From positions 1-64,000 of the forward strand of contig DATMML010000064.1 in NCBI GenBank assembly GCA_035570235.1: a stretch of DNA of 64,000 nt, given 5' to 3'. Origin of the DNA: Vicinamibacteria bacterium. GTDB lineage: Bacteria > Acidobacteriota > Vicinamibacteria > Fen-336. The notes beneath the pieces are model-generated. The model did no database searches. It worked only from the letters and a program-made list of their open reading frames with translations, and had not been told where the DNA came from. Below, one piece after another: positions 37,480 through 53,510 of the stretch (position 1 is the first letter of the stretch; each line of letters begins with the position of its first letter). The translations under genes were made by a program, and so were the position numbers.

Positions 37480-40400
37480 CTAGTTCTGCACTGTCCCTAC
37501 GACAGCCTGGAGAGCGAGCAGAAACTCCCGGTGAGCCTTCTCGAGCCCTGGGATGGACGCCATATTGCGCTCGATCGCCTCCGCGGCCTTCAGCAACTGC
37601 CCACGGTCCTTGTCCAGGGACGCCGCGGTCTCCTTGAAGCAGCCTCCCAGCTCACGGAGCAGACCTAAGTAGCCATCTCCTTTGCGCTGGGCGTAACCGC
37701 TGATGAACTCGCGCGACGCCTGAACGACGCGGTCGGAGCACTTCAACCCGTGAAGCCCGGGACGGGTCCGGTACAGTGCTTCCTGCCAGCGGACCATCTG
37801 GAGGATGTCGCCGGGGTCGCCTTCACCCTTCTGAAGCATGGTCGAAAAGGAGTCCAGCCGCTGGAGCAGGATGGCATGCTCGGACAAGGCCTGTTCTGGC
37901 TGGTTCTTGGCGACAGCGTCGGAGAGATCCTTGAGCGTCTTCAAGGCGCCGAAGGCATCTCCCCCGCCCTTTGCCACGAACGGCTCGAGGATGGCGATGA
38001 TCGGCTTCACGTGCTGCTTCATGAAACCGACGTACTGGGCCGGTGAGATTTCCTTCTGATGCAAGAGCTTCTCGGCCACCTCGGCCTCGGTCTTTGCAGC
38101 GTTGGCACCGAAGGCCGCGGCCAGCCGGTTGAAGACCTGGACGTGGTTGCTCAGGACATCCTGGATGGCCACGCTGACGGAAACCGGCTGCGCCAAGATG
38201 GTGAAGGCGTTCATCGGATGCCCATGTTCCAGCTCGAGGAAGTGGATTGGGACCGCGTCGGCGGTTGATACCTGGTATTTGACGGCGATCCAGCGGTTTT
38301 CTCCGGGCTGCACGTTCTCGAGCGTAATTGTGCCGCCGGGCCGGAATTCCACTGTCTTGCCCCCCACGATCTCGATCTGCGCCCCCTGCAACTGGTCCTT
38401 CGCGGGCGAGTCATAGTTCAGAACGATGTTCCGTGGGAAGAAGGCGGCGTTGTGAAGGAGCGCGAAGTGGATGCCGGTGAAGTGCGCCACGTTGTGGCTG
38501 ACGTTCAGGTTCCGTTGCGCCTTGTTGTTGTCCAAGATAATGAGGGACTGCCCGTCCGAGGCGCCCGGGCTTTGCCCGTTCAGGCTCGGCGACTTGTAGG
38601 GGTCGTCGGGTGTCGAGATCTGGACCGCGATGCAGGCGTGGGTAGAGGCGGTGGCAGGCTGATTCCAGTAGGAACTCTGCACCAGGCTTTGGTCGGCCGC
38701 CGCGAAATTCAGCGTGGCCGTGCCCACCGACGCGAAGTTGCTGCCCGCGCCGAAAGGCGACACCAGGAACTCCGCGGTGACGGTTGCGGTCGATCCGGTT
38801 GCGTTGCGGCTGACGCGGACGAAGCCGTAGTTGTCACCCAACGTTCCGGCGCCCGCAAACATGTTGTCCGTGGGGTACCAGTCGTTCACTGGAGTGCCGG
38901 GGGTGTTGCTACCGCGGTTCCACACGTCACTGCTGTAAGCCCAGTTGGTGGTGTAGTTTGTGGATGGTTCTTGCCCGAGGTCGTGACTGAGGGCCGTGTC
39001 GGTCCAGTCCCGCACATAGAAGTCCTTGTCGCCGGGCAGCTGAGTGACGGCGGTGGCGCAGCCGCTCATGGGGCTCACGCAGGAATCGTTGGCCGTCGCC
39101 GCCTGGATGCGGTAGTAGTAGGTCGCCCCGTGGACCACCCCGTTGTCGGTATAGGTCAGCGTCGGCGCAGTCACGGTGGCGATTCTCGTGAAGCCCGCGC
39201 TGCAGCTCGTCTCGTTACGGAAGACGAAATAACGCGTGGCATTGAGGCCGCCCGTGGTCCAGTTCAACGTGACCTGCTGGTTGTTAGCGGCGGCCGTGAG
39301 GGTTGGAGTAGTCAGGGAGGGGCACGAGGTCTGGTTCTGGTTAGCGGGGTCACCAGCCAGACCGCACGCGATGCCGTGGCGGTTGAGGGCCGCGAAAATC
39401 GCTGCCGCGTGCGGTGTGCCGTTCGCCGGACCGTCACCGTCATCGTCGATCGCGCGCAGGACCGTGTACAGGCTGCCAGCGCCACATCCGTTGGAGGTCT
39501 TGGTCGTGGTACCCGTGCACGTGTACATATTCGTGGACTGGGGCATGCCAGTATAGAAAAGCCGGTCCTCGAGCTGCCATGCGCTGACGATGTCCAGGTT
39601 GGTTGGGGCGGCTACCAGGTCCCGGTTCACGAGGTCCCAGAGGGCTTGGGTGGGGATGCCCGATTCACAGTGGTCTTCCCAACCGCAGGGGCCGTTGTAC
39701 GGCCCAGGTGCGCAGGTATACCCGGGGTTCACTTGCCCGTTGTTCTGGGGTGTCCACGCCGTCGGATGGGTGTGCTGAGCCCAGTCGGCATCCCTGACGC
39801 CCGTGCAAGCTGTGCATGCATCTCCGTAGCCCCCGCAGTTGCTGCCCCCAAGGAAGCCGCTGCCAGTGCAAGACTGGTGGGTCTGCAAAATGGCCGTCCA
39901 GTCGGCGCGCGACTCAATGGGCTTGTTGTCTGTCCCCGCTCCGGAACCATCGTTCGAATCCATGCCGTGTCCCCACTCGTGCATCGAGACGCCCGGGAGT
40001 TCACCTGTGTTGTTGCAGCCACCAAAGGCCTGGTAGAAGTTGAGCTTGGTGCCATCCCAGAAGGCGTTGCACGTGCCGGTTAAGTTCACGACATCCGTAA
40101 GTTGGGCCTGAAGCCATGCGTTGGTCGGTAGGTAGCTGAAGCCCTTCATCTTGATCTGAGTGACGTTCCAGTCTTGAGTGCGCGCGGAGTGGGTGTTTCC
40201 AGCCCCGCCCACGCCGGGCGTCGTGCAGTCCGTCCCAACACCCGCCTGGTTGGCAAAATCAATGAGACCGATTGGGTTCCCCGCGCGCGAGATGGCTCCG
40301 CAGTTGTCGGTAATCTTCACGCCGCCAGCAACCCCAACCCCGGGGCAGCCGGTCATGGTGGACGTTCCGCCGACTCCGGGGAAATTGCCCGATGTGTCGG

Positions 40401-41406
40401 TGCAGATCGCTGCACCGTAGTCGGTGTCGGCGAAGGGCTCGGTGACCTCGGTCTGAGGCTTGTCGGTTTTGTAGACTCCTCCCTGAATGTGCCCGTACGC
40501 GTTGGTGTCGATGAAACGGACGAGGTCGCCCGTGTTCGCATTCACGAGCGCCTCCCAGCTTCCTAATACTCCCGGCCGCTGAAACGCGAACTTGTAGACG
40601 AGCATGTACCCGATCATCTTACCGAAGGGCACCTTGGGCGCGTCCGGGTCGAGCCCCGGGGGCGTAATGGGAATAATCCCTAGGGAACCTTGGTCGAGCC
40701 ATTTGTCCCTGTCCATGCCGCCGACATAGGACTCCAACCTCGCCTTCGCTCGATCGAGGGGAAGAGTGGGCTTTGGGTCCAGTTTGATGTCCCCAATGTT
40801 CGTCACTCCCACCTGAATGAGGTTGCCGTTGTTGATCGCGAGGAAGACCGACCCCCCTTCCACGGGCACCCCGCCGTGGGCCCACTGGAAGCGCACGAAG
40901 TAGACGGAGTTGCCGACCGGCACCGTACCTACAGGGTCCAGAACAAGCTCCTCCGGGTTCACCTGCAAAGCAACCCGATTGCGCACCAGGAACTCCCTGG
41001 CCAAGGATTCCATCTTGGCTCTAGGTATGCAGGAGGGACGATCGCAGTCCGCCCCGAAATCCTGCCACCGCAGCTTGTTCGCTGGGCCGGGGATGAACGG
41101 GATGGCACCGCCCTCGACGAGGTTCGCCCGACCGGTCCGCTCGTCAATCAGGAAGCGCCAAGACGAGCCGTACTCAGACTGGAAGCGCTTGATATCAGCG
41201 CGGTACGCGAGAGGCTCTTTGACCGCCTCCGCGTAGGTCAGCGTCCGCGAGACGCGCAGCTCCCGCTTTGCCATGACAAGCTTGTCCAGGGGTGAGGGGG
41301 CCTTTTTCACCACCTGCGCCAGTGCGGGCACAGCTAGGACGGCCAAGACCAGGCCCAGGACAACGCCCCGCGTGATTGGACCCTTGCGGCCGTTCATAGA
41401 GCTCAT
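37480..41406 (-). CDS. Large secreted metalloprotease, M36/thermolysin-like
   Basis: 1308 aa with signal peptide (1-30, ending PALAQ). Residues 30-300 resemble FTP/PepSY propeptides that inhibit the enzyme until cleaved. The zinc site is H476-E-W-G-H480 in VSMHEWGHGMD, with a downstream Glu in PIESRADWTAI, as in fungalysin-like (M36) proteases. The catalytic part is rich in cysteines. A fibronectin-III-like domain (TPTLTAAANNQQVTLNWTTG) follows at about 695-790, then a galactose-binding/beta-sandwich region, and about 220 helical residues at the end (QVFNRLAAAFGANAAKTEAE) whose role is unknown. It should degrade extracellular proteins. The upstream gap to 41658 contains no recognizable gene. 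Confidence 0.88.
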   Translation of the reverse strand: MSSMNGRKGPITRGVVLGLVLAVLAVPALAQVVKKAPSPLDKLVMAKRELRVSRTLTYAEAVKEPLAYRADIKRFQSEYGSSWRFLIDERTGRANLVEGGAIPFIPGPANKLRWQDFGADCDRPSCIPRAKMESLAREFLVRNRVALQVNPEELVLDPVGTVPVGNSVYFVRFQWAHGGVPVEGGSVFLAINNGNLIQVGVTNIGDIKLDPKPTLPLDRAKARLESYVGGMDRDKWLDQGSLGIIPITPPGLDPDAPKVPFGKMIGYMLVYKFAFQRPGVLGSWEALVNANTGDLVRFIDTNAYGHIQGGVYKTDKPQTEVTEPFADTDYGAAICTDTSGNFPGVGGTSTMTGCPGVGVAGGVKITDNCGAISRAGNPIGLIDFANQAGVGTDCTTPGVGGAGNTHSARTQDWNVTQIKMKGFSYLPTNAWLQAQLTDVVNLTGTCNAFWDGTKLNFYQAFGGCNNTGELPGVSMHEWGHGMDSNDGSGAGTDNKPIESRADWTAILQTHQSCTGSGFLGGSNCGGYGDACTACTGVRDADWAQHTHPTAWTPQNNGQVNPGYTCAPGPYNGPCGWEDHCESGIPTQALWDLVNRDLVAAPTNLDIVSAWQLEDRLFYTGMPQSTNMYTCTGTTTKTSNGCGAGSLYTVLRAIDDDGDGPANGTPHAAAIFAALNRHGIACGLAGDPANQNQTSCPSLTTPTLTAAANNQQVTLNWTTGGLNATRYFVFRNETSCSAGFTRIATVTAPTLTYTDNGVVHGATYYYRIQAATANDSCVSPMSGCATAVTQLPGDKDFYVRDWTDTALSHDLGQEPSTNYTTNWAYSSDVWNRGSNTPGTPVNDWYPTDNMFAGAGTLGDNYGFVRVSRNATGSTATVTAEFLVSPFGAGSNFASVGTATLNFAAADQSLVQSSYWNQPATASTHACIAVQISTPDDPYKSPSLNGQSPGASDGQSLIILDNNKAQRNLNVSHNVAHFTGIHFALLHNAAFFPRNIVLNYDSPAKDQLQGAQIEIVGGKTVEFRPGGTITLENVQPGENRWIAVKYQVSTADAVPIHFLELEHGHPMNAFTILAQPVSVSVAIQDVLSNHVQVFNRLAAAFGANAAKTEAEVAEKLLHQKEISPAQYVGFMKQHVKPIIAILEPFVAKGGGDAFGALKTLKDLSDAVAKNQPEQALSEHAILLQRLDSFSTMLQKGEGDPGDILQMVRWQEALYRTRPGLHGLKCSDRVVQASREFISGYAQRKGDGYLGLLRELGGCFKETAASLDKDRGQLLKAAEAIERNMASIPGLEKAHREFLLALQAVVGTVQN

Positions 41407-41657
41407 AAGTGAGCCTCCCCCTTCAATTCAGTACGCGTCTATTGGAACAACTGGGAGGGATCCGACGGCTACAAAGGGCCCGATGGGTCTACCGGATGAG
41501 CGGCTATTTATCACTTCCCGCGTACTCTGTCAACACAAAAAGCGTTTCCATTCCAATCGCGTCATCCCGAGCTGGTTTCCGTCCTCCAACCGGCCAAAGA
41601 CTCCATACCCTGAGCGCGCTCGTTGGCGGCGAGCGAGGCCGAAGAGTCCACTCCCGA

Positions 41658-43037
41658 TCAGGACCTCATCGCCTGTGGAACTGTGGGTTCTGCCGGCGGC
41701 GCAAGTCGAGGACCCGACGGTGCGCAAGTGTAATGGAGACGGCGCGGATGACTCGCAAGCATAGGCGCGGCGATCGCCAGACGATCTAGCAGCTCTGCGG
41801 CCTGGCTAGCGGCCGGGGAGTCTGCGAGTCCCAGGCTGTACCCCATCGCCAGCATTTCGCGGAGCCCAGCAAAGTCACGTTGGCTCGCCCTCCGGCGCAG
41901 GGCGATAGCGAGCAGGAGCCCCGCAATGGCGTTCCGCTCGGGGGTCGCGAGTCGATCAAATTCTTCCCGCCAATGCGTCCTGTGTCCATCAGCATCCAGA
42001 CACTGAAGGATTTTGGTGGTGCCATCCGCTGTGAGCTTACCGGGCGGGATTTCTACGGGCGGCGTTCTTCCGGGCTGCAGCGCGGCCGCGCACAGCAGAC
42101 CCATCACGTAGGCCGTGTGATACGCGGTCGCGAGCAGGTAGTCCGACCGCTCATCGCCCTTCAGCTCATCAAGGCGTTGCAACTTCGTGCTTTGCGAAGG
42201 CAAGAAGCCCGCCCGGTCCTCAACGCGAGCAAGCACGCGGAAACCAAAAGCTGCGGCGGCACTCCACGGTCCTCCGGTGAGGGGCCAAGCCAAAATGACC
42301 TCCCCGCCCAAGTCGTAGTCCTCCTCGTCCAGGCACCGGCCGAGCGCCGCTTCCGCTTCTGCAAGAATTGCCGAAATGGGGCGGGGCAACCTGCGCGGTA
42401 GGAGATTCAAGTCGGTCACGTACATCAAGGCGTGTGTGAAGGCGTAAACGTCGTCCCGGCTACCGCTAAGCAAATCCATGCGCCGGCCTAGAACCGAGTC
42501 TCGGGCCGCTGCCCGCTGCTCCACGCCAGAATTTGATCGTGAACCGCCCCACATCACTTCGAGCCACCGCTGTTCGAGAACGCGGTGAGGCAAACGTTCG
42601 CGCCCAGCGCGCACCTGGGATTCAAGACTCCGCCCCAGCACGGCGTCAAAGCCCGGATCCAGATAACCAAGCCTTGTCAGGCATATGTGCGCCTGCGCAT
42701 AGTCAATGGCCAAGGCGGGCTCCACGCATAATGCCAGGAGCATGCGCTCGCAGCGCGCAAGGGGGATGAGGCGCTGAGCGAGGCAGCGAATTCGTTCCTT
42801 CACTTCGGAATACTCGCCCGCCGCTGAGGCGCTCAGCAGGAGAAGGGCCGTCTCGGCTATCACTTTTTCGGGACGGAGGCTGTGTCCCGGCTCGCTGGGG
42901 TCGGTGTACCCCTTGGCCGCGAGCCGGTCCACCGCCTGCTTCGCTATGTCGAGAGCATGGCTGAGGCGCCTTGCCAAGTCCGCGGTGCTCCAGCTCGCGG
43001 TTGTTCCGGGCCGGGACTCCGTCGTGGGCCTCCCCAT
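41658..43037 (-). CDS. Uncharacterised 459-aa protein paired with a small peptide gene
   Basis: ATG 43037 has GGGGGAG seven bases upstream; a TTG at 43055 is a weaker alternative. The protein is soluble, largely alpha-helical and Ala/Leu/Arg-rich. Conserved-looking parts include YAFTHALMYVTDLNLLPRRL, YDLGGEVILAWPLTG and YLLATAYHTAYVMGLLCAA. The pattern of acidic and aromatic residues recalls DUF6895-type proteins seen near small peptide genes, but I cannot confirm that. No signal peptide or catalytic motif is visible. It lies 29 bp downstream of the 82-aa peptide gene on the same strand, and both are divergent from the sigma-factor/CHAT operon. Confidence 0.7.
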   Translation of the reverse strand: MGRPTTESRPGTTASWSTADLARRLSHALDIAKQAVDRLAAKGYTDPSEPGHSLRPEKVIAETALLLLSASAAGEYSEVKERIRCLAQRLIPLARCERMLLALCVEPALAIDYAQAHICLTRLGYLDPGFDAVLGRSLESQVRAGRERLPHRVLEQRWLEVMWGGSRSNSGVEQRAAARDSVLGRRMDLLSGSRDDVYAFTHALMYVTDLNLLPRRLPRPISAILAEAEAALGRCLDEEDYDLGGEVILAWPLTGGPWSAAAAFGFRVLARVEDRAGFLPSQSTKLQRLDELKGDERSDYLLATAYHTAYVMGLLCAAALQPGRTPPVEIPPGKLTADGTTKILQCLDADGHRTHWREEFDRLATPERNAIAGLLLAIALRRRASQRDFAGLREMLAMGYSLGLADSPAASQAAELLDRLAIAAPMLASHPRRLHYTCAPSGPRLAPPAEPTVPQAMRS

Positions 43038-43066
43038 CGCCACGCTCCCCCGCAATTGGCGGTCGG

Positions 43067-43315
43067 TTACGACTGTATTTCGCCAGTCGCAGCGCGAAGC
43101 GCCCCCAGGTTCTCGACCGGACCTCCGGTGTTACCGTGGACGATGAGGACATGGACAAAGTACCGCATGGTCCCGCAGAAGCCCTCCCAAGGCTCGTCGG
43201 CGAGCGACACTGAAGGTCCTAGCTCGGCAACCAGCTTTCCGATGGCCGCAAAGTCCACAGCTTTACTCTCTAGCGCTTTCTTTACGATCTCTTGGTGATT
43301 GATTCGGACACTCAC
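43067..43315 (-). CDS. Small 82-aa peptide gene upstream of the 459-aa protein
   Basis: The GTG start at 43315 follows GGGAGG with a five-base gap, one of the best ribosome sites in the window. The product begins with a helical, charged segment (NHQEIVKKALESKAVDFAA), has a Gly-Cys core (WEGFCGTMRYFVHVLIVHGN with one Cys) and ends GEIQS. The size, strong translation signal and position just ahead of a larger helical protein resemble modified-peptide precursor loci, but no leader motif, cyclase or radical-SAM enzyme is present. It could equally be a small regulatory or structural protein. Confidence 0.7.
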   Translation of the reverse strand: MSVRINHQEIVKKALESKAVDFAAIGKLVAELGPSVSLADEPWEGFCGTMRYFVHVLIVHGNTGGPVENLGALRAATGEIQS

Positions 43316-43520
43316 GTTCGCCTCCCTTTCGTCGAAATTTGAAATTTGAGCCGATCAAACAGAAGCAGCTTCACGCACGAGTTTGGTGGGGCTCGGGGCA
43401 CAAGCGTTTCACCGCAGAAAGGGGTAACGAACCAACGGGCAAGCTCACCAATGAGCGGGGGGGTGTAGCCGGGCCGGCGGCTGGGCTGCTCCCGGATATT
43501 GTGGCGGAACAACACGCTTT

Positions 43521-44171
43521 ATGGTTACAATCCGGTTCCGACCTAAGAGAGTGGCTTTGGCGCGGCAGGTCTTCGACGCCGTTTATCTCGAACGGCTGCG
43601 CGGCGGGGACCGCGAGACCGGCAGGCACTTCTACGCCTACTTCGCCGAGCTGATTCTTATCAAGGTAAGGGCGCGGCAACGCTCTTCCTCCTTCGCTGAG
43701 GACGTCCTTCAGGAGACGCTCGTTCGGGTGCTCCGGGTGGTGCGCTCTCAGGAGGGACTGCGGGATCCAGGGTCGCTCGGCGCCTTCGTCAGCTCCGTCT
43801 GCAACAACGTGCTGCTCGAGTTTGGCCGCGCCGAGGGCCGCCACCGACCGCCTCTCGTGGAACCAGCTCCCCTTCCGGACCCGACGCCCAATCAGGAGAT
43901 GCGGCTCATTACCGAGGAGAGAAAGCACGCGGTGCGACGCGTGATCGACGGGTTGCCACCCAAGGACCGTGAGCTGCTGCGCGCCGTGTTCTTGGCGGAG
44001 CACGAAAAGGACGTAGTCTGTCAGCAACTTGGTGTCAGCCGAGACTACCTCCGGGTCTTGATCCACCGGGCCAAGAACCAATTTCGGGCCCTCTACCTGC
44101 AGCAGGAACAGGGGCCCGCTTCGCACTCTGAAGCTGGTCGCCGGCCTTCCCGGCGATCCGTGGGGGGGTGA
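43521..44171 (+). CDS. ECF-type RNA polymerase sigma factor
   Basis: 216 aa. Region 2 is seen in FYAYFAELILIKVRARQRSS with FAEDVLQETLVRVLRVV (the D-x-x-Q-E-T motif), and region 4 in IDGLPPKDRELLRAVFLAEH followed by the helix-turn-helix QQLGVSRDYLRVLIHRAKNQ. A region 3 is absent, as in extracytoplasmic-function factors. It is the first gene of a six-gene operon whose second gene encodes a zinc-finger membrane protein of the anti-sigma type, so it is probably held inactive until a signal is received. The ATG has only a weak ribosome site. Confidence 0.88.
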   Translation: MVTIRFRPKRVALARQVFDAVYLERLRGGDRETGRHFYAYFAELILIKVRARQRSSSFAEDVLQETLVRVLRVVRSQEGLRDPGSLGAFVSSVCNNVLLEFGRAEGRHRPPLVEPAPLPDPTPNQEMRLITEERKHAVRRVIDGLPPKDRELLRAVFLAEHEKDVVCQQLGVSRDYLRVLIHRAKNQFRALYLQQEQGPASHSEAGRRPSRRSVGG

Positions 44172-44173
44172 TC

Positions 44174-44884
44174 ATGGATCACGAGGAAGCGACAAGCACC
44201 AGAGCTGCCGAAAGCTACGTCCTGGGGGAGATGACCCCTGAGGAGAGGGACCAGTACGAGGAACACTTCTTCAGCTGCCCGGAATGCGCGGAGGAGGTGC
44301 GAGCCGCGGCCATCTTCTTGGAAAACGCGAAGTCGGTCCTCGCGGTGAATCTGCAAGAGGGCAATGAGCCGAACCGTGGACCCTGGTGGACGGGAAAGCG
44401 TGCCCTGTTCTGGCCCCTTCCACTCGGAGCAGCCGCCGCTCTTCTCGTTCTCCTCGGCGTCGTGGGTTACCAGAGCCTGATCGTTCTGCCATCCTTGAAG
44501 GACAGACTCCGAGAGGGCACGGCCCTCCAGTCTGCCCCCTGGTACTTTCTCTCCATCTCCCGGAGCGAGCTGCCGATCGTCACCGTTTCTGGTCAGCAGC
44601 GAATGGTCGGGCTGACGCTAAGCAAGAGTTCCGACCGTTCATTCCCCTCGTACCTCTGCGAGGTCCGGAACGCCGCCGGCCAAATGGTTATATCGGCTGT
44701 ACTTCCCGCTCCGCCTGCTGGAGACGAGCTTCAAATCCTAGTCCCTACTGAACGCCTTCGGCCAGGGGCCTATGTTGTCGCGGTCGCTGGGCTCGATCCG
44801 TCGGCCGGCTCGGCTCCAGCATCCGCCTTTGCCCGTTACCACTTCACCTTCGATCGTCTAGAGAGAGGAGATACGAAAAGATGA
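44174..44884 (+). CDS. Anti-sigma factor-like membrane protein with zinc finger
   Basis: 236 aa from ATG 44174; a GTG at 44168 overlaps the sigma gene stop. The cytosolic N-terminus has H31-x3-C35-x2-C38, the zinc-binding anti-sigma domain, preceded by LGEMTPEERDQYEEH. One membrane span (about 73-95) follows, then an exported domain of about 130 residues with beta strands. The layout is that of zinc-finger anti-sigma factors that bind the cognate ECF factor and sense an outside signal. It is in the right position for the sigma gene before it. Confidence 0.85.
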   Translation: MDHEEATSTRAAESYVLGEMTPEERDQYEEHFFSCPECAEEVRAAAIFLENAKSVLAVNLQEGNEPNRGPWWTGKRALFWPLPLGAAAALLVLLGVVGYQSLIVLPSLKDRLREGTALQSAPWYFLSISRSELPIVTVSGQQRMVGLTLSKSSDRSFPSYLCEVRNAAGQMVISAVLPAPPAGDELQILVPTERLRPGAYVVAVAGLDPSAGSAPASAFARYHFTFDRLERGDTKR

Positions 44885-45639
44885 GCGCAAAGACTGGAGG
44901 TGCCCGGCGGTTCATTTATCGGGCGAACGCGCTAGCCTTCGCCGGCACGATCACCCGGCCGGACAGTGCGGTCCTCGAGGCCCAGGCCAGCATTTCGCTT
45001 CCATCCATCGGCGGGCGCGCCGCCGCGAGAGTAGACGGTTTCAGATACCCGAACCTGATGTCCTTCGGCGCCGCCTCCAGCGTTGTGATCGGGAGCGCCA
45101 ACGGCTCCATCCACAACACGGTCACCACCGTCATCGTCGACGACCTGAACATCCGCGGCGTGGTTACTGCAGACCGAGTCGTTGCCCAGCTCACGTCATC
45201 GCAGGACATCGACGGCACAAACGAGATCGGCATCCTGCCGCGCGGGAGCTACTTCGTAAACTTGCGCATTGAAGGTTTCCCGATCGAACTCAAGGCTGAA
45301 ACCCCCCTCCTGGAATGCGATACCTTCCTCCGGCTACAAAAGGAGTGGCAGAAGGTCGGCTCGCGGGACGGCGACAGCAAGGACCCTAACGCGACCGAGG
45401 GTCGCCCGCTCCTCTCATCGTTGTTCGCTACTCCGGATCTGAGTGGGACGACCCTACACGCCCATGGAAGCAGTGGATGTGCGATCAAGGTCCCAGGCTT
45501 CGGGGATGTCTTTCTGGGAGAATACCTGATCACTCCGTCGTCACGGCACCTCACAATGGTGCGCGTTCACATGGGATCGCCGGTCGGCGGCGTCATGGTC
45601 TGCGGCGACGTGGGGGGCAATGGCAGCGTCTACCCGTGA
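44881..45639 (+). CDS. Protein of unknown function in the CHAT operon
   Basis: 252 aa; its ATG overlaps the previous TGA by the ATGA pattern, so translation is coupled. No signal peptide or membrane span is seen. Beta-rich stretches dominate (RANALAFAGTITRPDS, AVLEAQASISLPSIGG, VVIGSANGSIHNTVTTVIVD, AHGSSGCAIKVPGFGDVFLG). The fold might be a beta-sandwich or choice-of-anchor-like domain, but this is only an impression; no family is recognized. The next gene starts inside its stop codon. Confidence 0.75.
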   Translation: MSAKTGGARRFIYRANALAFAGTITRPDSAVLEAQASISLPSIGGRAAARVDGFRYPNLMSFGAASSVVIGSANGSIHNTVTTVIVDDLNIRGVVTADRVVAQLTSSQDIDGTNEIGILPRGSYFVNLRIEGFPIELKAETPLLECDTFLRLQKEWQKVGSRDGDSKDPNATEGRPLLSSLFATPDLSGTTLHAHGSSGCAIKVPGFGDVFLGEYLITPSSRHLTMVRVHMGSPVGGVMVCGDVGGNGSVYP

Positions 45640-48143
45640 AGCGGTCGGTCGTTCTACTCCTCCTTGGCTTCGCAGCGTGTAGGAGCGAGGTTGAGCTAGA
45701 GGCACTCCAGCGGACTGGATACGAGGACCTCCAACATGGCGATCTTAAGGCCGCCCAGGGGCGTGCCGAGGAGGGATTGCGCCGGACTGGCCGCCCGCAG
45801 GACGCGGCATGGCAATGGCGGTTCCGGATCCTGAAAGCCGAGGTCCTGGTAAGCCAACGACGCAACGCCGAGGCCCTGTCTACTGTCGTGGCGGAGCCAC
45901 CAGCGGGCCTCACGTTCGAGTCAACTCACGTCCGGGCCTTGATGACGCGAGGCTACGCGCAGTGCCTGGCTGCGGAAAGAGCGGAGCAGCGTAGCCAAGC
46001 CGCAGCTGACCTCGCGGCCGCCGACCGCCTTGCCCGCCAGCTGGCCGCTGCTGAGCTCGTCGCCGATGTCCTCCTGCGAAGCGGCACTTGCGCCTCGCTT
46101 GGCCGCGACTACCCGGTCGCCGACCGTCTCTTCCGTGAGGCACTCGCCATCGCTCGCACCGAAAAGCGACCCTTCCTCGAGGCCATGGCCGCCGGGAGCC
46201 TCGGAAACCTTTGCCTAAGAAACGGCCGGTATGACGAGGGGGCGGACTGGCTGAAGAAGGCTTTGGAACTTGCCTCCGCTCTGAAGGCCGAGAACATTAC
46301 CCTCAAGACTTTGGTCAACCTCGGCTGGTGCCACTACAAACTGGGCGACTTCGAGCGAGCGCTTGACTTTCTTCGACGCGCGGACTCGCTCGCCCTTGCC
46401 CGCGGCTATACCGGAGACCGTTTGGCGGGCCTGACGGTGACGGGTAACGCCTACTATCGACTGGGGGACTTGACGAAAGCCGTTCAAGTGTATGACTCGG
46501 CGCTGCCGATTGCGCGCACGCTGGGTGACAGGGGCGAGACGTCCACGCTTCTCGCAAACCTTGGGATCCTCGCCCTCGAGCGAGGGCGCTACGACGAGGC
46601 GGAATCTCACGTGCGGGAGGCTCTTAGTATGGCGAGCGAGATCGGAGACGCCCTGGGAACCCTGCGCTCGATGCTCACGCAGGGCGAGATCCTTTTTGCA
46701 CGTGGCCACCGGTCCGAGGCCGAGGCGATCTACCGCCAGGTCATCGACGCTCCTCTGGACGACCCCGAGCTCCACTGGGAAGCTCGGGCGGCTCTGGCCC
46801 ACCTCCTGGCAGGAGCTCGGCGGCCCCTCGAGGCGGAAACCGAGTTTCGGAAAGCCTTCGCCATCATGGAGCAGTCCCGTTCCGAGCTGCGGAAGGCGGA
46901 AGACAAGATCTCGTTCTTCTCGGGCGTGAAGCACTTCTACGAAGGCTACGTGGACCTGCTGGTCCAAGCAGGACTCCCGTGGCAGGCTCTGCAGGTCGCA
47001 GACGAGGGCCGGGCACGCTTGATGCGCGAAAGGCTCGGGACCGACAATTCCGTCCTAAGGATCGAGGGAGAGCGCCTAAGAGAGCTGGCGCAAACCCTCG
47101 ACGCCGTGCTCTTGTGCTACTCGACGGCCTCGAAGCGCTCTTTCCTTTGGTTGGTGACGCCGAACCGGCAGGATTTCCACGTGCTTCCAGATGAGGAGAT
47201 CCTTCGTGAGCACGTAGCCAGCCACCAGCAGCGCATCCGGAGCTCGCGCGATCTAGTCGTCGAAGCGGCCCCCGAGGCACAATGGCTGTACCATGCGCTG
47301 TTCGGTCCTGTTCAGCCCCTGATCCCGCGTGGCTCGCGGGTGATCGTAATCCCCGACGGCCCGCTCCACTCGCTGAGCTTCGAGACGCTGGTTCGCCCGG
47401 ATCCAAAGCCTCATTACTTGATCGAGGACGTGACGCTCGGAGTGGCTCCTTCGCTCGGTCTGCTCGCCGCCGGCGCAACGCCCTCCCGCCGGCGCGTGGG
47501 CCGGAGGGCCGTCCTCATCATAGGTAACCCCCTCGCGCCAGACGAGGAGTTCCCGCCCCTCGCGTGGGCCGACCGCGAGGTCCGAGGCATCGCCGACCAG
47601 TTCGATCCCTTGGAGCGCGTCGTGTACTCCGGCGCACAGGCCAATCCGTTCGTCTACCGGAATGCGGACCCCGGGCACTTCTCGCTCATCCACTTTGCCG
47701 CCCACGCCAAGGCTAACCCCGACATCCCCCTCGACTCGGCGGTCATCCTCTCGAGGAAGGACGACGCCTACAAACTCTACGGTCGGGAGATCATGGAGAT
47801 CCCCCTCCGAGCCGAGTTGGTAACGCTATCCGCCTGCCGCAGCGCCGGCTCGCGCATCTATAGAGGGGAAGGGCTCGTGGGTCTGGCCTGGGCATTCCTT
47901 AGCGCCGGAGCGAGGAGTGTGATCGCCGGGCTTTGGAACGTCGAGGATGCCTCCACTTCGGAGCTGATGGTGGACCTCTACCGGGGAATCAGAAAGGGCG
48001 AGTCGCCCGCGGAGGCTTTGCGCGAGGCTAAACTCTGCCTGCTGCGCTCCGATGGCGCTTACCGCAAGCCCTTTTACTGGGCCCCCTTCGTGCTCTACAC
48101 ACGCAGTCCTGAGCGCTCTCCCGAAGTCTCCCGGGTTCCGTAA
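45636..48143 (+). CDS. TPR-CHAT lipoprotein (caspase-like peptidase domain)
   Basis: The GTG at 45636 overlaps the previous TGA (GTGA), giving 835 aa. Residues 1-14 plus C15 (GFAAC) form a lipoprotein signal. Several TPR units occupy about 30-450 (LGDFERALDFLRRADSLALA, LGDLTKAVQVYDSALPIART). The C-terminal CHAT domain has H686 and H690 in HFAAHAK and C734 in TLSACRSAG, the His-Cys dyad of caspase-like peptidases, with GEGLVGLAWAFLSAGARSV after it. CHAT proteases are known in bacterial defence (for example with TPR or Gasdermin partners) and in envelope proteolysis. Here it is anchored outside the cytosol and tied to a sigma/anti-sigma pair. Confidence 0.9.
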   Translation: MKRSVVLLLLGFAACRSEVELEALQRTGYEDLQHGDLKAAQGRAEEGLRRTGRPQDAAWQWRFRILKAEVLVSQRRNAEALSTVVAEPPAGLTFESTHVRALMTRGYAQCLAAERAEQRSQAAADLAAADRLARQLAAAELVADVLLRSGTCASLGRDYPVADRLFREALAIARTEKRPFLEAMAAGSLGNLCLRNGRYDEGADWLKKALELASALKAENITLKTLVNLGWCHYKLGDFERALDFLRRADSLALARGYTGDRLAGLTVTGNAYYRLGDLTKAVQVYDSALPIARTLGDRGETSTLLANLGILALERGRYDEAESHVREALSMASEIGDALGTLRSMLTQGEILFARGHRSEAEAIYRQVIDAPLDDPELHWEARAALAHLLAGARRPLEAETEFRKAFAIMEQSRSELRKAEDKISFFSGVKHFYEGYVDLLVQAGLPWQALQVADEGRARLMRERLGTDNSVLRIEGERLRELAQTLDAVLLCYSTASKRSFLWLVTPNRQDFHVLPDEEILREHVASHQQRIRSSRDLVVEAAPEAQWLYHALFGPVQPLIPRGSRVIVIPDGPLHSLSFETLVRPDPKPHYLIEDVTLGVAPSLGLLAAGATPSRRRVGRRAVLIIGNPLAPDEEFPPLAWADREVRGIADQFDPLERVVYSGAQANPFVYRNADPGHFSLIHFAAHAKANPDIPLDSAVILSRKDDAYKLYGREIMEIPLRAELVTLSACRSAGSRIYRGEGLVGLAWAFLSAGARSVIAGLWNVEDASTSELMVDLYRGIRKGESPAEALREAKLCLLRSDGAYRKPFYWAPFVLYTRSPERSPEVSRVP

Positions 48144-48308
48144 GTCGCGTCCTTCCCCGGTCGTTAGCTTCTGCAACGCTTCACTGCTGTGCTCTTCAGA
48201 TCTTGCGTCCATGGAACATCCCGAGGATGAGAGGGCCGCTTTCTGAAACGCTCCGAGGGATCCCCGCACCAAACAGGAAAGGGAAGGCCGGAGCGCAAGA
48301 ACCCGGCC

Positions 48309-48893
48309 GTGGAGGTGGCCGTGCCGGAATCACAAGGCAACGTTAGGCTCGCGGTGCTAGCCACCCTCATCAGCGCGGTCGGATCCGTCGTCGTGGCCTA
48401 CATTGGCATCCTTCCCCAGATCGAGAAGCCGTATCTCGCGCGGATCAAGGATCAAGAAAAGAACCTAAAGGACCTCAGAGACAAGTTCGGAGTCGAGCAT
48501 CGAACCTCGGAGGCGCACCTTCGTTGGACAATCAGCGGAAGAGTGAGGCGCGCCGGGGCGTCGGATGCCCCAGGCCAATACGAGGTGTACCTGGTAGCTG
48601 GCAACAGCAACGTGGCGAGCCCTGGCGACGACGGGAGGTTCACCTTCGACGGAGTCTTCCCGGGCTCGTACTCACTGATTGTCCGCGACATCGCATCGCC
48701 CTCTAACCAGACCGCGCGCGGACTCATCACGCCGTCCGATCGAACCGGTCGTCTTGAGTCCCACGGTGCGTTTGTTGAGTACGACGTGGTTCAGGAGCCA
48801 GATCGAGCAACAGAAGCTCGCACGGTGCAACCCACGGGACCAGTGGCGGCTCAGGCAGCTCTTGCCCACACCGACAACGGAGGACTCCAGTGA
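48309..48893 (+). CDS. Membrane-anchored carboxypeptidase-regulatory-like protein
   Basis: 194 aa with GTG start (other GTGs at 48315 and 48321). A transmembrane segment (about 14-34) is followed by a short coiled-coil-like stretch (ARIKDQEKNLKDLRDKFGVE) and a carboxypeptidase-regulatory/Cna-B-like beta-sandwich at about 70-150 (WTISGRVRRAGASDAPGQYE, FDGVFPGSYSLIVRD). The tail is low-complexity. It ends in a GTGA overlap with the next gene. The 165-bp gap from the CHAT gene contains no other feature, so it may still be in the same transcript. Confidence 0.75.
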   Translation: MEVAVPESQGNVRLAVLATLISAVGSVVVAYIGILPQIEKPYLARIKDQEKNLKDLRDKFGVEHRTSEAHLRWTISGRVRRAGASDAPGQYEVYLVAGNSNVASPGDDGRFTFDGVFPGSYSLIVRDIASPSNQTARGLITPSDRTGRLESHGAFVEYDVVQEPDRATEARTVQPTGPVAAQAALAHTDNGGLQ

Positions 48894-49216
48894 GACACGC
48901 TCTCCTCTCCGCCTGTGCCGTCGTTCTCCTGTTGGCCGGCCTCGCTCCCACCACCACGACAGGGCAAGATGCAGCATCCCGCGTCCGGGGGTCTGTCCTC
49001 ACGCCCTCGCGAAGGCCCGCCGCATCGCTATGGGTGGTCCTGGAGCAACAGGGCCACGAGAGCGGGCGGGCTCTGACTGCGGACGATGGGCGTTACTATC
49101 TCTCTCGCCTGCAGCCTGGACCCTACACGATCCTGGTGAAGCGGGGGCGGGCCACCCTTTACCGGGCCCAGATCCGCCTGCCCGAAAACGAGGTCTACGA
49201 CATCGTGCTGCCCTAG
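48890..49216 (+). CDS. Small secreted carboxypeptidase-regulatory-like protein
   Basis: 108 aa; the GTG start lies inside the preceding stop (GTGA). A signal peptide (1-26, ending TTGQ) is followed by a single beta-sandwich domain (RVRGSVLTPSRRPAASLWVV, LTADDGRYYLSRLQPGPYTI). It resembles the module in the preceding membrane protein and in the TonB receptor at 1197. It is the last gene of the coupled operon and is followed by a pair of hairpins. Confidence 0.78.
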   Translation: MRHALLSACAVVLLLAGLAPTTTTGQDAASRVRGSVLTPSRRPAASLWVVLEQQGHESGRALTADDGRYYLSRLQPGPYTILVKRGRATLYRAQIRLPENEVYDIVLP

Positions 49217-49217
49217 T

Positions 49218-49248
49218 CCCTTCCCAGAAGAAGGGCCTCACAGGGCCC
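49218..49248 (+). terminator. Hairpins at the end of the CHAT operon
   Basis: CCCTT pairs with AAGGG (49218-49235) and, overlapping it, GGGCC pairs with GGCCC (49233-49248). The two stems share bases and are mutually exclusive. No clear T-run follows. Confidence 0.4.
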
Positions 49249-49817
49249 GGCTATCCGGTAGCGAGTCCTGCACAAAGGAGTCTCAGTTGCAGGGCAACGA
49301 CGGCAAGGAGTTTGAGAGGCGCCGAGTGCGGTCCGACAGTCAGCCCCTGGGCGCCACCTTCTCGCGCGTTCACCGCTGCCCTCGCGTGCCGGGCCATCCA
49401 TCGTTCGGTGCTCCAAGGGCAGTGGGCGTGGTTCTTTCTCAAGACCGGGACCCCGGACCAAGAAGGGAGAGCGAAGGCCGGGCGCAAGAGGCCCCTATCC
49501 AGGGCATTGATCCGCCACCACTTGGCGCAGCCCTACCGAAGCTTACTGTGCCCTCCTACTTCTAGTTGGTGCGGGCCCCTGGTTCGTTTCGGCCCAAGGT
49601 TTACTGAAACGTTTGTACCTCCGGTCCCACCAAGCTTCTAGCAAGGCCAGTGTCCTGATTTGAGAGATTCCTTTCCAGAAGCGAACGACGGTTTCACGGC
49701 TCTGATCGGCCGCCTGGTCCCCGAATGCCTTGCGGTTGGCCAGGGTGAGCATCGATTGACGCCGTCAGCGAAGGGGCTCCCTGATCCTGGAGCCGCCCAG
49801 TACGGCAGGAGGACGCC
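49249..49817. other. Intergenic stretch before the propeller gene
   Basis: No convincing gene. A minus-strand frame at 49543-49752 lacks recognizable motifs and a good start. No promoter box pair was found. Confidence 0.4.
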
Positions 49818-51626
49818 ATGACCCTATGCGGAGAGACATCCCCAGCGATTCACAAAAAAGCGTGGAGTGTCCTGACGGCGCTCTTCCTCAGCCTGCTGTG
49901 TCAAACGACATATGCCTTCACCACCATTGCCACCGGGCTCAACGCCGCCATTGGCGTGTCGGCTGATCCATCGGGCAACGCCGTCTACTTCACGGAGTGG
50001 AACACCGGCGCGCTCAAACGCATCACTCTCACCCCGGGTTGCGACGCCACCACGCCGTGTCCGGTGACTACGGTCGCGGGCGGCTTCAGCCACCCCGAAG
50101 ATGTGGCGCTCGACACCGATCACGGCGTCGCATATGTCACCACGCGCGATGACCCGGGTACCACCGGCGCCTTATGGCGCGTGGATCTCACCACCGGCAT
50201 TCGAACGCTCATCACTTTCAATCTGGGTGCGCCACACCAGATTGTTCTCGATATTGCCACGGATACCGCATACGTCATTGGCTTCGACGCCGGTCGTCTG
50301 TGGAAGATAGAGCTCGCGACGGGCTCCAAGACCACCATCATGTCGGGCCTCGGCCATCCTGTCGGTCTCGCCCTCACCGCCGATCGAACGCGCGCCTACG
50401 TGACGGAGCAGACACCCGCGCGCCTCGCGGAGATCGACGTCGCGCTGCGCGCCCGTATTCGCAACGTCGTCACCGGACTGACCGGTCCTTTCTACCTGAG
50501 TTGGACCGACCCCGCCCAGATCGCGCTCTTTCTGGTCCAACGCGCGCCCGCCAACAACGTGCTCCGTGTTGACCTCCCCACATCGATCAGCGCGGTGGCT
50601 ATCAGCGGACTTCCGGCGCAAGCCTCGGGCATCTCACTCAACGCCATCGGCGGCGCAGCGTACGTCACCAGCAACTCGAGCGTCGTGCGCGCCGATCTCG
50701 GCACGCTGCCGATGGGCGAGCCTGTATTCCTTTCCGTCGGCAATGTTCCGTCGACCAGCATTGTCGATGGTTACGCTACGACGCCCCCCGGATACTTCAT
50801 GCAGGTCAAGGACTCGCCCTTCGGTGGAACGCTGAACATCTTTGGGAACTTCACGAACTTCAAAGGCCTGGGAGCTACCCACTATCGCGTCAACGTGTCA
50901 AAGGACGGTTCCCCTCCCACACCGCTCATGCAGACCTGGAACGCGTCCCGATGGAATCCCGTCACGAGCCTGTACGAAACAGCAGCGATTGCACCGGACG
51001 GGTCGGGCCGGTACGAGATCCCGGTCGAGTATCCCGCTCATCCTGAGCGCTGGGTACCGCCGTTCCTCATGATGCGCTGGCCGAGCGGTGTGAATGGGAT
51101 GTACACGTTCACAGTCGAGATCTTCACGTTCGTCCCGCCCTCGACATGGACTCCGCTCACCCCGCTGCTCCCGCCCGCTAAGAACCAGTTGACGGTGAAG
51201 ATCGACAATGACCCGCCCAATGTCGATCTGGTGAATATCTTCCTACACGGAGCAGTCACTCCACTCGGTGTCTGCGCACTGGTGAGCTCACCCTCGGGAA
51301 CGGCGTACGACGTCGAGATTACGGCCAATGATCCGAATGGCGCGCTTCTCAGCTACGGAGTCACGGCTTACTTCGGCCACAACGCCGCATCAACAGTGAT
51401 TGCGACCGAAAGCTACGCGAGCCACGTGAACGCGGATGGCCCGCACCTCTGGCACGGCGTCAACCATTTCAGAGGTCCGGCCGCCGGATGGACGCCGACA
51501 TGTAATTGCGCGCACACGTTCTTCGTAGACGTATGGAAGCGGACGATCGACGGCTACGGATACCTAATCTACAAAAACGCGCATCAGTCGATCACCATCA
51601 TGACCGCCCCATCGACTTGTCCATAG
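49818..51626 (+). CDS. Secreted beta-propeller-like protein
   Basis: 602 aa with a signal peptide at about residues 15-33 (ALFLSLLCQTTYAF). Up to about residue 310 there are NHL/SMP-30-like repeats (IGVSADPSGNAVYFTEWNTG, PEDVALDTDHGVAYVTTRDD, LDIATDTAYVIGFDAGRLWK, VGLALTADRTRAYVTE), the blades of a beta-propeller. The last 290 residues are a separate beta-rich region with unknown fold (RYEIPVEYPAHPERW, CNCAHTFFVDVW). Its role could be binding of a ligand or protein. The protease gene follows after 12 bp, so the two are likely cotranscribed. Confidence 0.8.
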   Translation: MTLCGETSPAIHKKAWSVLTALFLSLLCQTTYAFTTIATGLNAAIGVSADPSGNAVYFTEWNTGALKRITLTPGCDATTPCPVTTVAGGFSHPEDVALDTDHGVAYVTTRDDPGTTGALWRVDLTTGIRTLITFNLGAPHQIVLDIATDTAYVIGFDAGRLWKIELATGSKTTIMSGLGHPVGLALTADRTRAYVTEQTPARLAEIDVALRARIRNVVTGLTGPFYLSWTDPAQIALFLVQRAPANNVLRVDLPTSISAVAISGLPAQASGISLNAIGGAAYVTSNSSVVRADLGTLPMGEPVFLSVGNVPSTSIVDGYATTPPGYFMQVKDSPFGGTLNIFGNFTNFKGLGATHYRVNVSKDGSPPTPLMQTWNASRWNPVTSLYETAAIAPDGSGRYEIPVEYPAHPERWVPPFLMMRWPSGVNGMYTFTVEIFTFVPPSTWTPLTPLLPPAKNQLTVKIDNDPPNVDLVNIFLHGAVTPLGVCALVSSPSGTAYDVEITANDPNGALLSYGVTAYFGHNAASTVIATESYASHVNADGPHLWHGVNHFRGPAAGWTPTCNCAHTFFVDVWKRTIDGYGYLIYKNAHQSITIMTAPSTCP

Positions 51627-51638
51627 GTGGAGGAACCT

Positions 51639-52778
51639 ATGAGAACACGACTTCAGTCCATGCCCTTCGTCTTCGTCCTATTACTGGCGGCGGCGGTGCC
51701 CGCGACGGCCCAAACCAGTGTGTTTGTCACGGTACCCGATCACGGCGAGGAGGCTTTGACTTGGTGCGGCGCGGCCACGGGCCAGATGGTGGTCGGCGGT
51801 TATCCGGCCGGGGCCTGCACGCTCCTACAAGCAGATGTGTGGGACGGGATTCAGGCCCACAAAGTCGAAGGGAGCTGGGATACGGATCCCGCCGGTCTCA
51901 AAGATGCGATGATGACCCTCTGTCCGCCAGCGGGAGGCCATTGGGTCGTATTCTCCAATGCGAACGCACCGAGTCTGATGCATTCGGTGGCGTTCTGGAT
52001 GAATACGAACCACTATCCGGTGGCGGCGTTGCTCAACACGAACACACACAATGCAATTGCCACGCACCATGAGCACTGGATAGCGATCAAGGGCATTGTC
52101 ACGGATCTCGATCCGCGCACGAACCCGTCCGTGACGCTGCAGTACGTGCTGATTGTCGATCAGCCGCTGGTCTTTGGCGATCCCCCAGTCGAACGGTTTC
52201 TTTCGGGCTCGCAGTGGTATGCCGAATTCGGGGCCGTCGCGAAGAGTGGAAGTGCGTACAACGGAAACTTCGTGGCGGTCATCGAGCCTCCGAAGATCAA
52301 AGGCGTCGCGATCGCCAAGCTGCTGCCGGTCGTCGGCCCGTTGATTCCCATCGACCGTGTGACGGCCTTGGCAGAGCGTGCAGTGCAGACAGATCTCTCG
52401 AAGGTCCCCTCGTTTCCTGACCTCAGGAACCTGAAACCGCAGAGGCCCCTGCTCGTCAATCCGCAGCGCGGTGGCTACTACATCGTCCCGTTCGCGCGCG
52501 GAGAGGCCCCGGCGGAGCTGGCCGTGCTCATCAACGCGTACAGCGGCGGCTTCATGGAGGCCGCGCGCTTCAAGGCACGGCCGGTGCTGTCTGACAAGGA
52601 CGCCATCGCCCGGGCGCTCCACTTTCTCGGGCGTGATACAGCGAAGCAGTCCGCCGCGGTCCTCGCGTACCGTGAGGGCTCGTCTCCCTATCTGCCCTTC
52701 TGGCGCGTGACGATTGACGGCCAGGATCTGCTCGTCGACGCCGAGGGACGCGTGCATCAGGTGGGCCGTGAGAAGTAG
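51639..52778 (+). CDS. Secreted papain-like cysteine protease
   Basis: 379 aa; the ATG at 51639 follows GGAGGAA closely, 12 bp after the propeller gene. A signal peptide (1-25, ending PATAQ) precedes the catalytic region. Candidate catalytic residues are Cys in LTWCGAATGQM, His in HHEHWIAIKGIV and Asp in YVLIVDQP, the papain/C39-like order. The C-terminal 170 residues (from about IEPPKIKGVA) have no recognized fold. It resembles the lipoprotein protease at 17976 in logic (WC-x-AA motif) but is otherwise different. Confidence 0.75.
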   Translation: MRTRLQSMPFVFVLLLAAAVPATAQTSVFVTVPDHGEEALTWCGAATGQMVVGGYPAGACTLLQADVWDGIQAHKVEGSWDTDPAGLKDAMMTLCPPAGGHWVVFSNANAPSLMHSVAFWMNTNHYPVAALLNTNTHNAIATHHEHWIAIKGIVTDLDPRTNPSVTLQYVLIVDQPLVFGDPPVERFLSGSQWYAEFGAVAKSGSAYNGNFVAVIEPPKIKGVAIAKLLPVVGPLIPIDRVTALAERAVQTDLSKVPSFPDLRNLKPQRPLLVNPQRGGYYIVPFARGEAPAELAVLINAYSGGFMEAARFKARPVLSDKDAIARALHFLGRDTAKQSAAVLAYREGSSPYLPFWRVTIDGQDLLVDAEGRVHQVGREK

Positions 52779-53510
52779 TTGTGAGGTGGTTGGGGGCTTG
52801 CTTTGGGGTGACGCTGTGAAATGCCGAATGGAACTCGCCTGCCGCGCCCGCCTTCCTTACATCTCGGGATGCAAGTCGACGTGTCGAAGAGACCGGCCTC
52901 CTGCACAGTCGGCAGGGAGAAGCGGGAAGACGATCATCATGCACTCGTCCGAAGCGGGCGTCCTCATTGTCGCAACTCGTCTACTCACGCGGCAAGGGTT
53001 CGATAGGGCGCGAAGAGTTCTGATCACGCAATGTTCTTGGAGCGGGCGGGAAGCCTGAGGCGCCAAGACTGACGGAGCTGTCGAGCGTAAGTGGCGCAGA
53101 ACCCAAGCCCTTTCGTGCTTCGGGGTTGCTCTTGTGCAATCACACGACGATCGAGGTGGGGGTTGTAGTAACGACTGACATCAATACGTTTTCTAATCTT
53201 GGATGCAACAATCGCGGCTCTTCCATTACGGTTCACGTGCATCGTTGCTTCTGAACGGTCGCTTTTGGTGAAATATCTTGACATTCACTGCGCTCAAGTG
53301 TAGGTTCCGCGCTAACCCGCACCCGCCGGTCCCTCCAGCGGGCCCAGAGCGTGCGCAAGCGCTGCCAATCAAACGCTGTCTCTTCGGTAGGACTCGCCGG
53401 ACTGGTTCATCTATACGTAGGGGCGGACCCGCTGCTGTGGGGAAACGACCATGCCAGTTCCTGTGCGGGCAGTCGCCGCTCGCGCTAAGGGGATAGTGGA
53501 GGCTTGAACC
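52779..53510. other. Long intergenic stretch before the sedolisin gene
   Basis: No gene-like frame on either strand. A possible promoter at 53278-53306 is listed separately. Confidence 0.4.
53278..53306 (+). promoter_or_regulatory. Possible sigma-70-type promoter upstream of sedolisin
   Basis: A perfect TTGACA (53278-53283), 17-base spacer and TAGGTT (53301-53306). The -35 box is ideal but the -10 box matches only half of the consensus. It would give a leader of about 200 bases. Confidence 0.4.

Follow-up and report, generated by a model that had tools for sequence, protein, structure and literature searches.

The locus and its genes

The region under study is found on contig DATMML010000064.1 of a Vicinamibacteria bacterium (GCA_035570235.1), at positions 43521-49216 of a 64,000-nt stretch (hereinafter the window). 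It contains six plus-strand open reading frames, which code for a sigma factor, an anti-sigma factor, a 252-aa protein (hereinafter CAP), a TPR-CHAT protein and two CarboxypepD_reg proteins (Table 1). An earlier note on this DNA had described them as a six-gene operon with three stop/start overlaps (ATGA at 44881, GTGA at 45636 and GTGA at 48890). All six frames and all three overlaps are indeed present, but the conserved unit comprises only the first four genes. Gene five begins 165 bp past the stop of the CHAT gene and has no close relative among 119 related genomes, and neither gene five nor gene six is a recurrent neighbour of the cassette across 80 homologous loci. The six-gene unit was rejected on these grounds, and the “two beta-sandwich partners” proposed for the protease, i.e., the two CarboxypepD_reg proteins (PF13620; gene five below and gene six above the gathering cut-off), lie outside the conserved unit.

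The starts of the first two genes also call for revision. Since the conserved homology of the sigma factor begins at F18, and since a start at ATG 43521 would overlap the TACAAT of a -10-like element at 43526-43531 (see below), the real start is probably GTG 43551 or TTG 43557. Likewise, the anti-sigma factor probably starts at ATG 44174 rather than at 44168, a MxH start being retained in its homologues.

Table 1. Features of the sigma-CHAT locus in window coordinates
Feature	Position	Strand	Evidence
Putative promoter, -10-like TACAAT with TG upstream	43523..43531	+	EM motif search, -10 alignment, shuffle and non-coding tests
ECF-type sigma factor	43521..44171	+	TIGR02937 over cut-off; homology from F18
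Anti-sigma factor: zf-HC2, one TM helix, periplasmic Ig/cupredoxin-like domain	44174..44884	+	PF13490, AlphaFold, PDB fold search
CAP, choice-of-anchor P-type beta protein without signal peptide	44881..45639	+	NF040603; 66-member alignment; AlphaFold
Exported TPR-CHAT lipoprotein, caspase-like, H690/C734	45636..48143	+	PF12770, E 1.7e-59; family-wide dyad and export signals
CarboxypepD_reg-like membrane-anchored protein, outside the conserved unit	48309..48893	+	PF13620 below cut-off
Secreted CarboxypepD_reg protein, outside the conserved unit	48890..49216	+	PF13620 over cut-off

Domain architectures and structural models

The sigma factor is recovered by TIGR02937 (59.5 bits vs. a cut-off of 42.9); Pfam regions 2 and 4 are both present, each just under the gathering threshold, and region 3 is absent, as expected of the ECF type. 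Only distant paralogues of it are encoded in the rest of the genome. The anti-sigma factor combines a zf-HC2 domain (PF13490, 27.7 bits vs. a cut-off of 22.2) with a single transmembrane (TM) helix and a further stretch of about 127 residues. The HxxxCxxC-type motif is found in 68 of 71 homologues and the TM segment in 64, and H31, C35 and C38 (numbered from 44174) are invariant in a 61-sequence alignment. The AlphaFold model (mean pLDDT 88.7) includes the zinc-finger helices and the TM helix, and a fold search of the PDB matched its periplasmic part to cupredoxin/Ig-like sandwiches. A juxtamembrane arginine in a loop of the periplasmic domain (Arg130, numbered from 44174) is conserved in 53 of the 61 sequences; it is a candidate cleavage site only and, with tryptophan in 5/61, need not be one.

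CAP had been listed as unknown. While it shows no Pfam match, it is recognized by the NCBIfam choice-of-anchor P model NF040603 (39.9 bits, cut-off 27), as are 37 of 66 CAP homologues at E <= 0.01. The match is confined to the N-terminal half, and the conserved C-terminal half extends beyond the matched part of the model; by profile comparison, CAP is thus a distant relative of choice-of-anchor P. Full-profile members of that family, which score up to 108 bits, carry signal peptides in those that are readable and, over the short stretches covered, have neither a sigma factor nor a CHAT gene beside them. CAP, in contrast, gives a partial and weaker match, is linked to both and lacks a signal peptide in every homologue that we read by eye, with its first strand starting at the N-terminus; it is accordingly predicted to stay in the cytoplasm. 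AlphaFold models it with confidence (pLDDT 88.6, pTM 0.85) as a structure of long beta strands plus a single helix, in which the strongly conserved C-terminal NG tail forms an ordered hairpin. A Foldseek search of the PDB with this model returned no match at E <= 0.001 (TM <= 0.26 for all of the best 50), and neither Foldseek against viral models nor a PDB sequence search found any. The absence of a gasdermin fold match in the PDB led us to reject an identification of CAP as a bacterial gasdermin.

The fourth protein unites TPRs with a CHAT domain (PF12770, 202 bits vs. a cut-off of 24), the only one above the cut-off in this genome. Its N-terminus is lipobox-like, and inspection by eye showed those of its homologues to be generally lipobox- or signal-peptide-like. 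The H690/C734 dyad, reported as intact from the window alone, proved invariant in 81 of 81 sequences, with homologues only 33–49% identical to the window protein; such invariance would be unlikely without catalysis. Loss of the dyad in close relatives, named in the earlier note as grounds for refutation, was not seen.

Conservation and phyletic spread of the four-gene cassette

When CAP and CHAT were searched separately in related genomes, both led to the same genomes and to adjacent coordinates, and gene calling at these loci recovered the sigma factor, anti-sigma factor, CAP and CHAT genes in a single order. A scan of the genome collection with the single 252-aa sequence had given no match, the family being too divergent for it, and a scan with the CHAT alignment yielded the set of 80 loci. 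Almost all of these are titled Acidobacteriota (Acidobacteriaceae, Bryobacterales, Solibacteraceae, Vicinamibacterales and others), with the addition of Luteimonas panaciterrae; one locus labelled Acidimicrobiia (L137) is a contig of a genome from the same class as the window. The cultivable species Granulicella mallensis is one of the carriers.

We scored with family models the 68 loci with 3 kb or more of sequence upstream of CHAT. All four genes occur in the same order in 59 of them, and five have anti-sigma factor, CAP and CHAT without a recognizable local sigma factor. The remaining four include two with CHAT alone, one lacking the anti-sigma factor and one (L137) with only CAP and CHAT. 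To counter the bias of retrieval through CHAT, loci were also retrieved through CAP. Of 20 loci fetched in this way, 13 show the complete order, including one in a second genome of the Luteimonas family; the other seven either stop at the end of a contig or are orphan, degenerate or rearranged copies. The neighbourhood check suggested in the earlier note, in which scattered homologues would have spoken against a unit, hence came out in favour of a conserved gene order, and with it of the proposed linkage between a sigma/anti-sigma pair and an intact exported CHAT protein. Beyond these four genes, no neighbour is shared by more than 6 of the 80 loci.

The CAP profile matches about 6% of the sampled Acidobacteriota genomes (25/396), usually as a single copy per genome, and within one genus the cassette is found in 22 of 62 genomes, indicating an accessory module. 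Such patchiness within one genus would also fit a role in conflict or as an effector. The Luteimonas CHAT is 48% identical to that of the window, and this copy, together with the further genome of that family, points to the entire cassette having been transferred horizontally; a search for carriage of the cassette on plasmids gave no match. Pairwise distances of the four proteins correlate across 62 loci (r 0.79–0.89), which is partly due to shared species ancestry.

The association of CHAT with sigma factors is broader than this cassette. For TPR-CHAT genes of the class outside the cassette, an ECF sigma factor is encoded within 3 kb in 31 of 50 loci, a non-random set of the better CHAT matches; of 20 control regions, drawn from genomes of the same class, 1 has a nearby ECF sigma gene (Fisher p 9e-6). 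Inspection of every gene in ten outgroup TPR-CHAT loci revealed no recognizable CAP. Thus, the CAP cassette can be seen as one strongly conserved subtype of a wider sigma-CHAT association.

A putative promoter of the primary-sigma type

ECF sigma factors commonly transcribe their own operons, although an autoregulatory promoter is not obligatory. The earlier note had proposed that a signal relieves the anti-sigma factor and induces the caspase-like protease. However, the consensus tested for an ECF-type promoter was found in none of 60 regions upstream of the sigma gene. An EM motif search of the DNA preceding this gene instead recovered a -10-like element (log-likelihood 130 vs. 27–45 in shuffles), and alignment on it showed a TG ahead of the element, as in extended -10 promoters. 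The conserved form in the homologues is TGnTAnAcT; in the window copy the TG stands one base farther from TACAAT than in the canonical extended -10, making it a weaker fit than those of the homologues. The extended -10 is present in 30 of 60 loci, compared with a mean of 0.2 in shuffled sequences, while the -10-like element is surely non-coding in only 10 of 44 loci and could elsewhere fall inside the sigma coding frame. A first dyad scan, itself uninformative, gave no ECF autoregulatory dyad. Together, the conserved extended -10 and the lack of an ECF-type promoter suggest that transcription of the operon would depend on the primary sigma factor, with CHAT and CAP being made ahead of the signal. 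Induction of the operon by its own sigma factor is therefore not supported, and CHAT looks to be a component of the signalling apparatus itself, not an output that it induces.

Relationship to known systems

The best studied of the TPR-CHAT proteins is presumably Csx29. In the type III-E CRISPR craspase, which consists of Cas7-11, Csx29, Csx30 and CASP-sigma, the TPR-CHAT protein Csx29 cleaves Csx30, an inhibitor that binds the ECF-like CASP-sigma; the cleavage is thought to free the sigma factor (PMC10028731). The cassette likewise encodes a TPR-CHAT protein together with an ECF-like sigma factor and a putative inhibitor of it, but its CHAT protein is exported whereas Csx29 is cytosolic, and the putative inhibitor is a membrane-bound zf-HC2 anti-sigma factor rather than Csx30. 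Membership in type III-E craspase was rejected: no Cas genes were seen among the recurrent neighbours of the 80 loci, no direct repeats of 22 or more bases, as would mark a CRISPR array, occur in window positions 38000–55000, and the Csx29 model NF041237 scores only 17.4 bits against a cut-off of 300.

With systems of the RseA-DegS-RseP and RsiW type, the cassette shares an ECF sigma factor and a single-pass anti-sigma factor with a cytosolic zinc finger and a periplasmic domain. It differs from them in that the linked protease is of the CHAT cysteine type, not DegS or PrsW, and in having CAP as an extra conserved component. A TPR-CHAT protein acting on the anti-sigma factor would be formally comparable to both DegS/RseA and Csx29/Csx30/CASP-sigma, the latter without CRISPR. 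The pairing of a caspase-like protease with a neighbouring beta-rich protein of 250–290 aa is also reminiscent of the caspase-like/gasdermin defence pairs; however, CAP lacks a PDB match, the protease is exported and a sigma/anti-sigma pair is present. A known anti-phage system was likewise rejected, as PADLOC returned only TPR and weak CHAT-region matches. No paper listed by our full-text literature search seemed to describe an ECF sigma-CHAT cassette other than craspase, although the main re-classification of ECF sigma factors lay outside that search and may mention one; the four-gene set of these soil bacteria of the Acidobacteriota is apparently undescribed.

A putative envelope-signalling module

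The reading that we prefer, at a probability of roughly 0.4, is that of a self-contained envelope-signalling module, in which a pre-made CHAT protein acts on the anti-sigma factor and frees the sigma factor, with CAP as an accessory. The exported CHAT protein would share a compartment with the periplasmic domain of the anti-sigma factor, its dyad is constrained and Csx29 offers a precedent, all of which point to the anti-sigma factor as the protein acted upon. The five loci that keep anti-sigma factor, CAP and CHAT without a local sigma factor also count in its favour. From this combination we infer the protease activity, its substrate, the role of CAP, the signal and the regulon as follows. 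The primary sigma factor would transcribe the operon, such that all four proteins are in place ahead of the signal, with the zinc-finger domain of the anti-sigma factor tethering the ECF sigma factor to the cytoplasmic side of the membrane. The periplasmic TPR-CHAT lipoprotein would sense a ligand or damage via its TPR array and cut the anti-sigma factor, or otherwise act on it, at its Ig-like domain in the periplasm. Regulated proteolysis would follow, and the freed sigma factor would direct transcription at other sites in the genome. Cytoplasmic CAP may be an accessory part of the switch, e.g., a modulator of the sigma/anti-sigma complex. More tentatively, the periplasmic TPR-CHAT protein might be the site-1 protease for the anti-sigma factor and cytosolic CAP a dedicated third component, which would make the cassette a CRISPR-free, trans-envelope counterpart of craspase-sigma signalling within a broader Acidobacteriota family of sigma-linked TPR-CHAT systems.

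The earlier note had favoured an output role, with the sigma factor inducing its own operon and CHAT (and CAP) being the induced effectors, the former as an envelope protease acting on other proteins. The general habit of autoregulation among ECF sigma factors, the position of CHAT and CAP downstream in the same operon and the patchy distribution would all suit such a role, but it is weakened by the promoter evidence, i.e., the primary-sigma-like extended -10 element in place of an ECF-type promoter in the 60 loci, and it sits poorly with the five loci that lack a local sigma factor. We consequently regard it as somewhat unlikely.

Other assignments of the protease and its partner appear less probable still. 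CAP could be the substrate of CHAT in the manner of gasdermin or Csx30, perhaps clipped at the C-terminal hairpin, and serve as effector or messenger. Its place directly upstream of CHAT in a nearly invariant order, the correlation of CHAT and CAP distances (r 0.87) and the strong conservation of the NG tail would be expected of such a pair. Yet the two are predicted to reside in different compartments, CAP having no signal peptide and CHAT being exported, and this, which a simple protease-substrate relationship leaves unexplained, is what chiefly makes it improbable. Moreover, the tail is predicted to be an ordered hairpin rather than an exposed linker, neither a gasdermin nor any other fold in the PDB matches CAP, and the ten outgroup TPR-CHAT loci have no recognized CAP. 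Even less probable, in our estimation, is a role without proteolysis, in which the TPR-CHAT protein would be a periplasmic sensor or scaffold binding the anti-sigma factor, and CAP a protein with a structural or surface function that leaves the cytoplasm by some unrecognized pathway. Peptide binding is the usual function of TPR domains, and the profile relationship of CAP to a family of surface-protein domains agrees with this proposal, but the conservation of both dyad residues throughout so divergent a family argues against it.

Implications

To our knowledge, few TPR-CHAT proteases beyond CRISPR have a known partner. By placing a candidate substrate in the same operon, the cassette makes the function of a bacterial caspase-like protein directly testable. 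It also provides a defined context and a confident model for CAP, a protein of no known structure, and presents a candidate for a further class of protease in the control of ECF anti-sigma factors. The signalling module that we favour suggests that, in the Acidobacteriota, a caspase-like protease could transmit a signal through the cell envelope.

Atypical copies and surroundings of the cassette

In five loci that retain the anti-sigma, CAP (choice-of-anchor P-type beta protein) and CHAT genes (L105, L111, L131, L138 and L146), no sigma gene is recognisable upstream. The copy in G052, a genome of the window's own class (L137/L041), lacks both the sigma and anti-sigma genes and encodes a CAP truncated at its C-terminus; in its CHAT, a stop together with a repeat-like insert disrupts the N-terminus. 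This copy is apparently decaying.

The DUF6895 gene of the window is oriented divergently to the cassette, and in homologues it does not belong to the cassette. Pfam searches gave no match for either secreted protein encoded 3' of the cassette, nor, at E 0.01, for the large one on the minus strand. The cassette at the homologous locus L106 is bordered by small DUF1843-like proteins and a pair of radical-SAM-like ones, recognised by eye, an arrangement that hints at a peptide-modification locus.

Genes flanking the cassette in the window
Protein	Position	Strand	Basis
Secreted, 1308 aa; HExxH-like metalloprotease-type segment	37480-41406	-	By eye
DUF6895, 465 aa	41658-43055	-	Strong profile match, E 1.2e-50
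Secreted, NHL/ScyD-like	49818-51626	+	Model score below cut-off
Secreted, resembling C39-type papain-like fold	51627-52778	+	By eye

TPR-CHAT genes outside the cassette

ECF sigma genes also adjoin many Vicinamibacteria TPR-CHAT genes outside the cassette (L045-L054, L209-L248), the neighbouring pairs occurring in several orientations. The ECF sigma/TPR-CHAT pairing is wider than the cassette and, it appears, hitherto undescribed.
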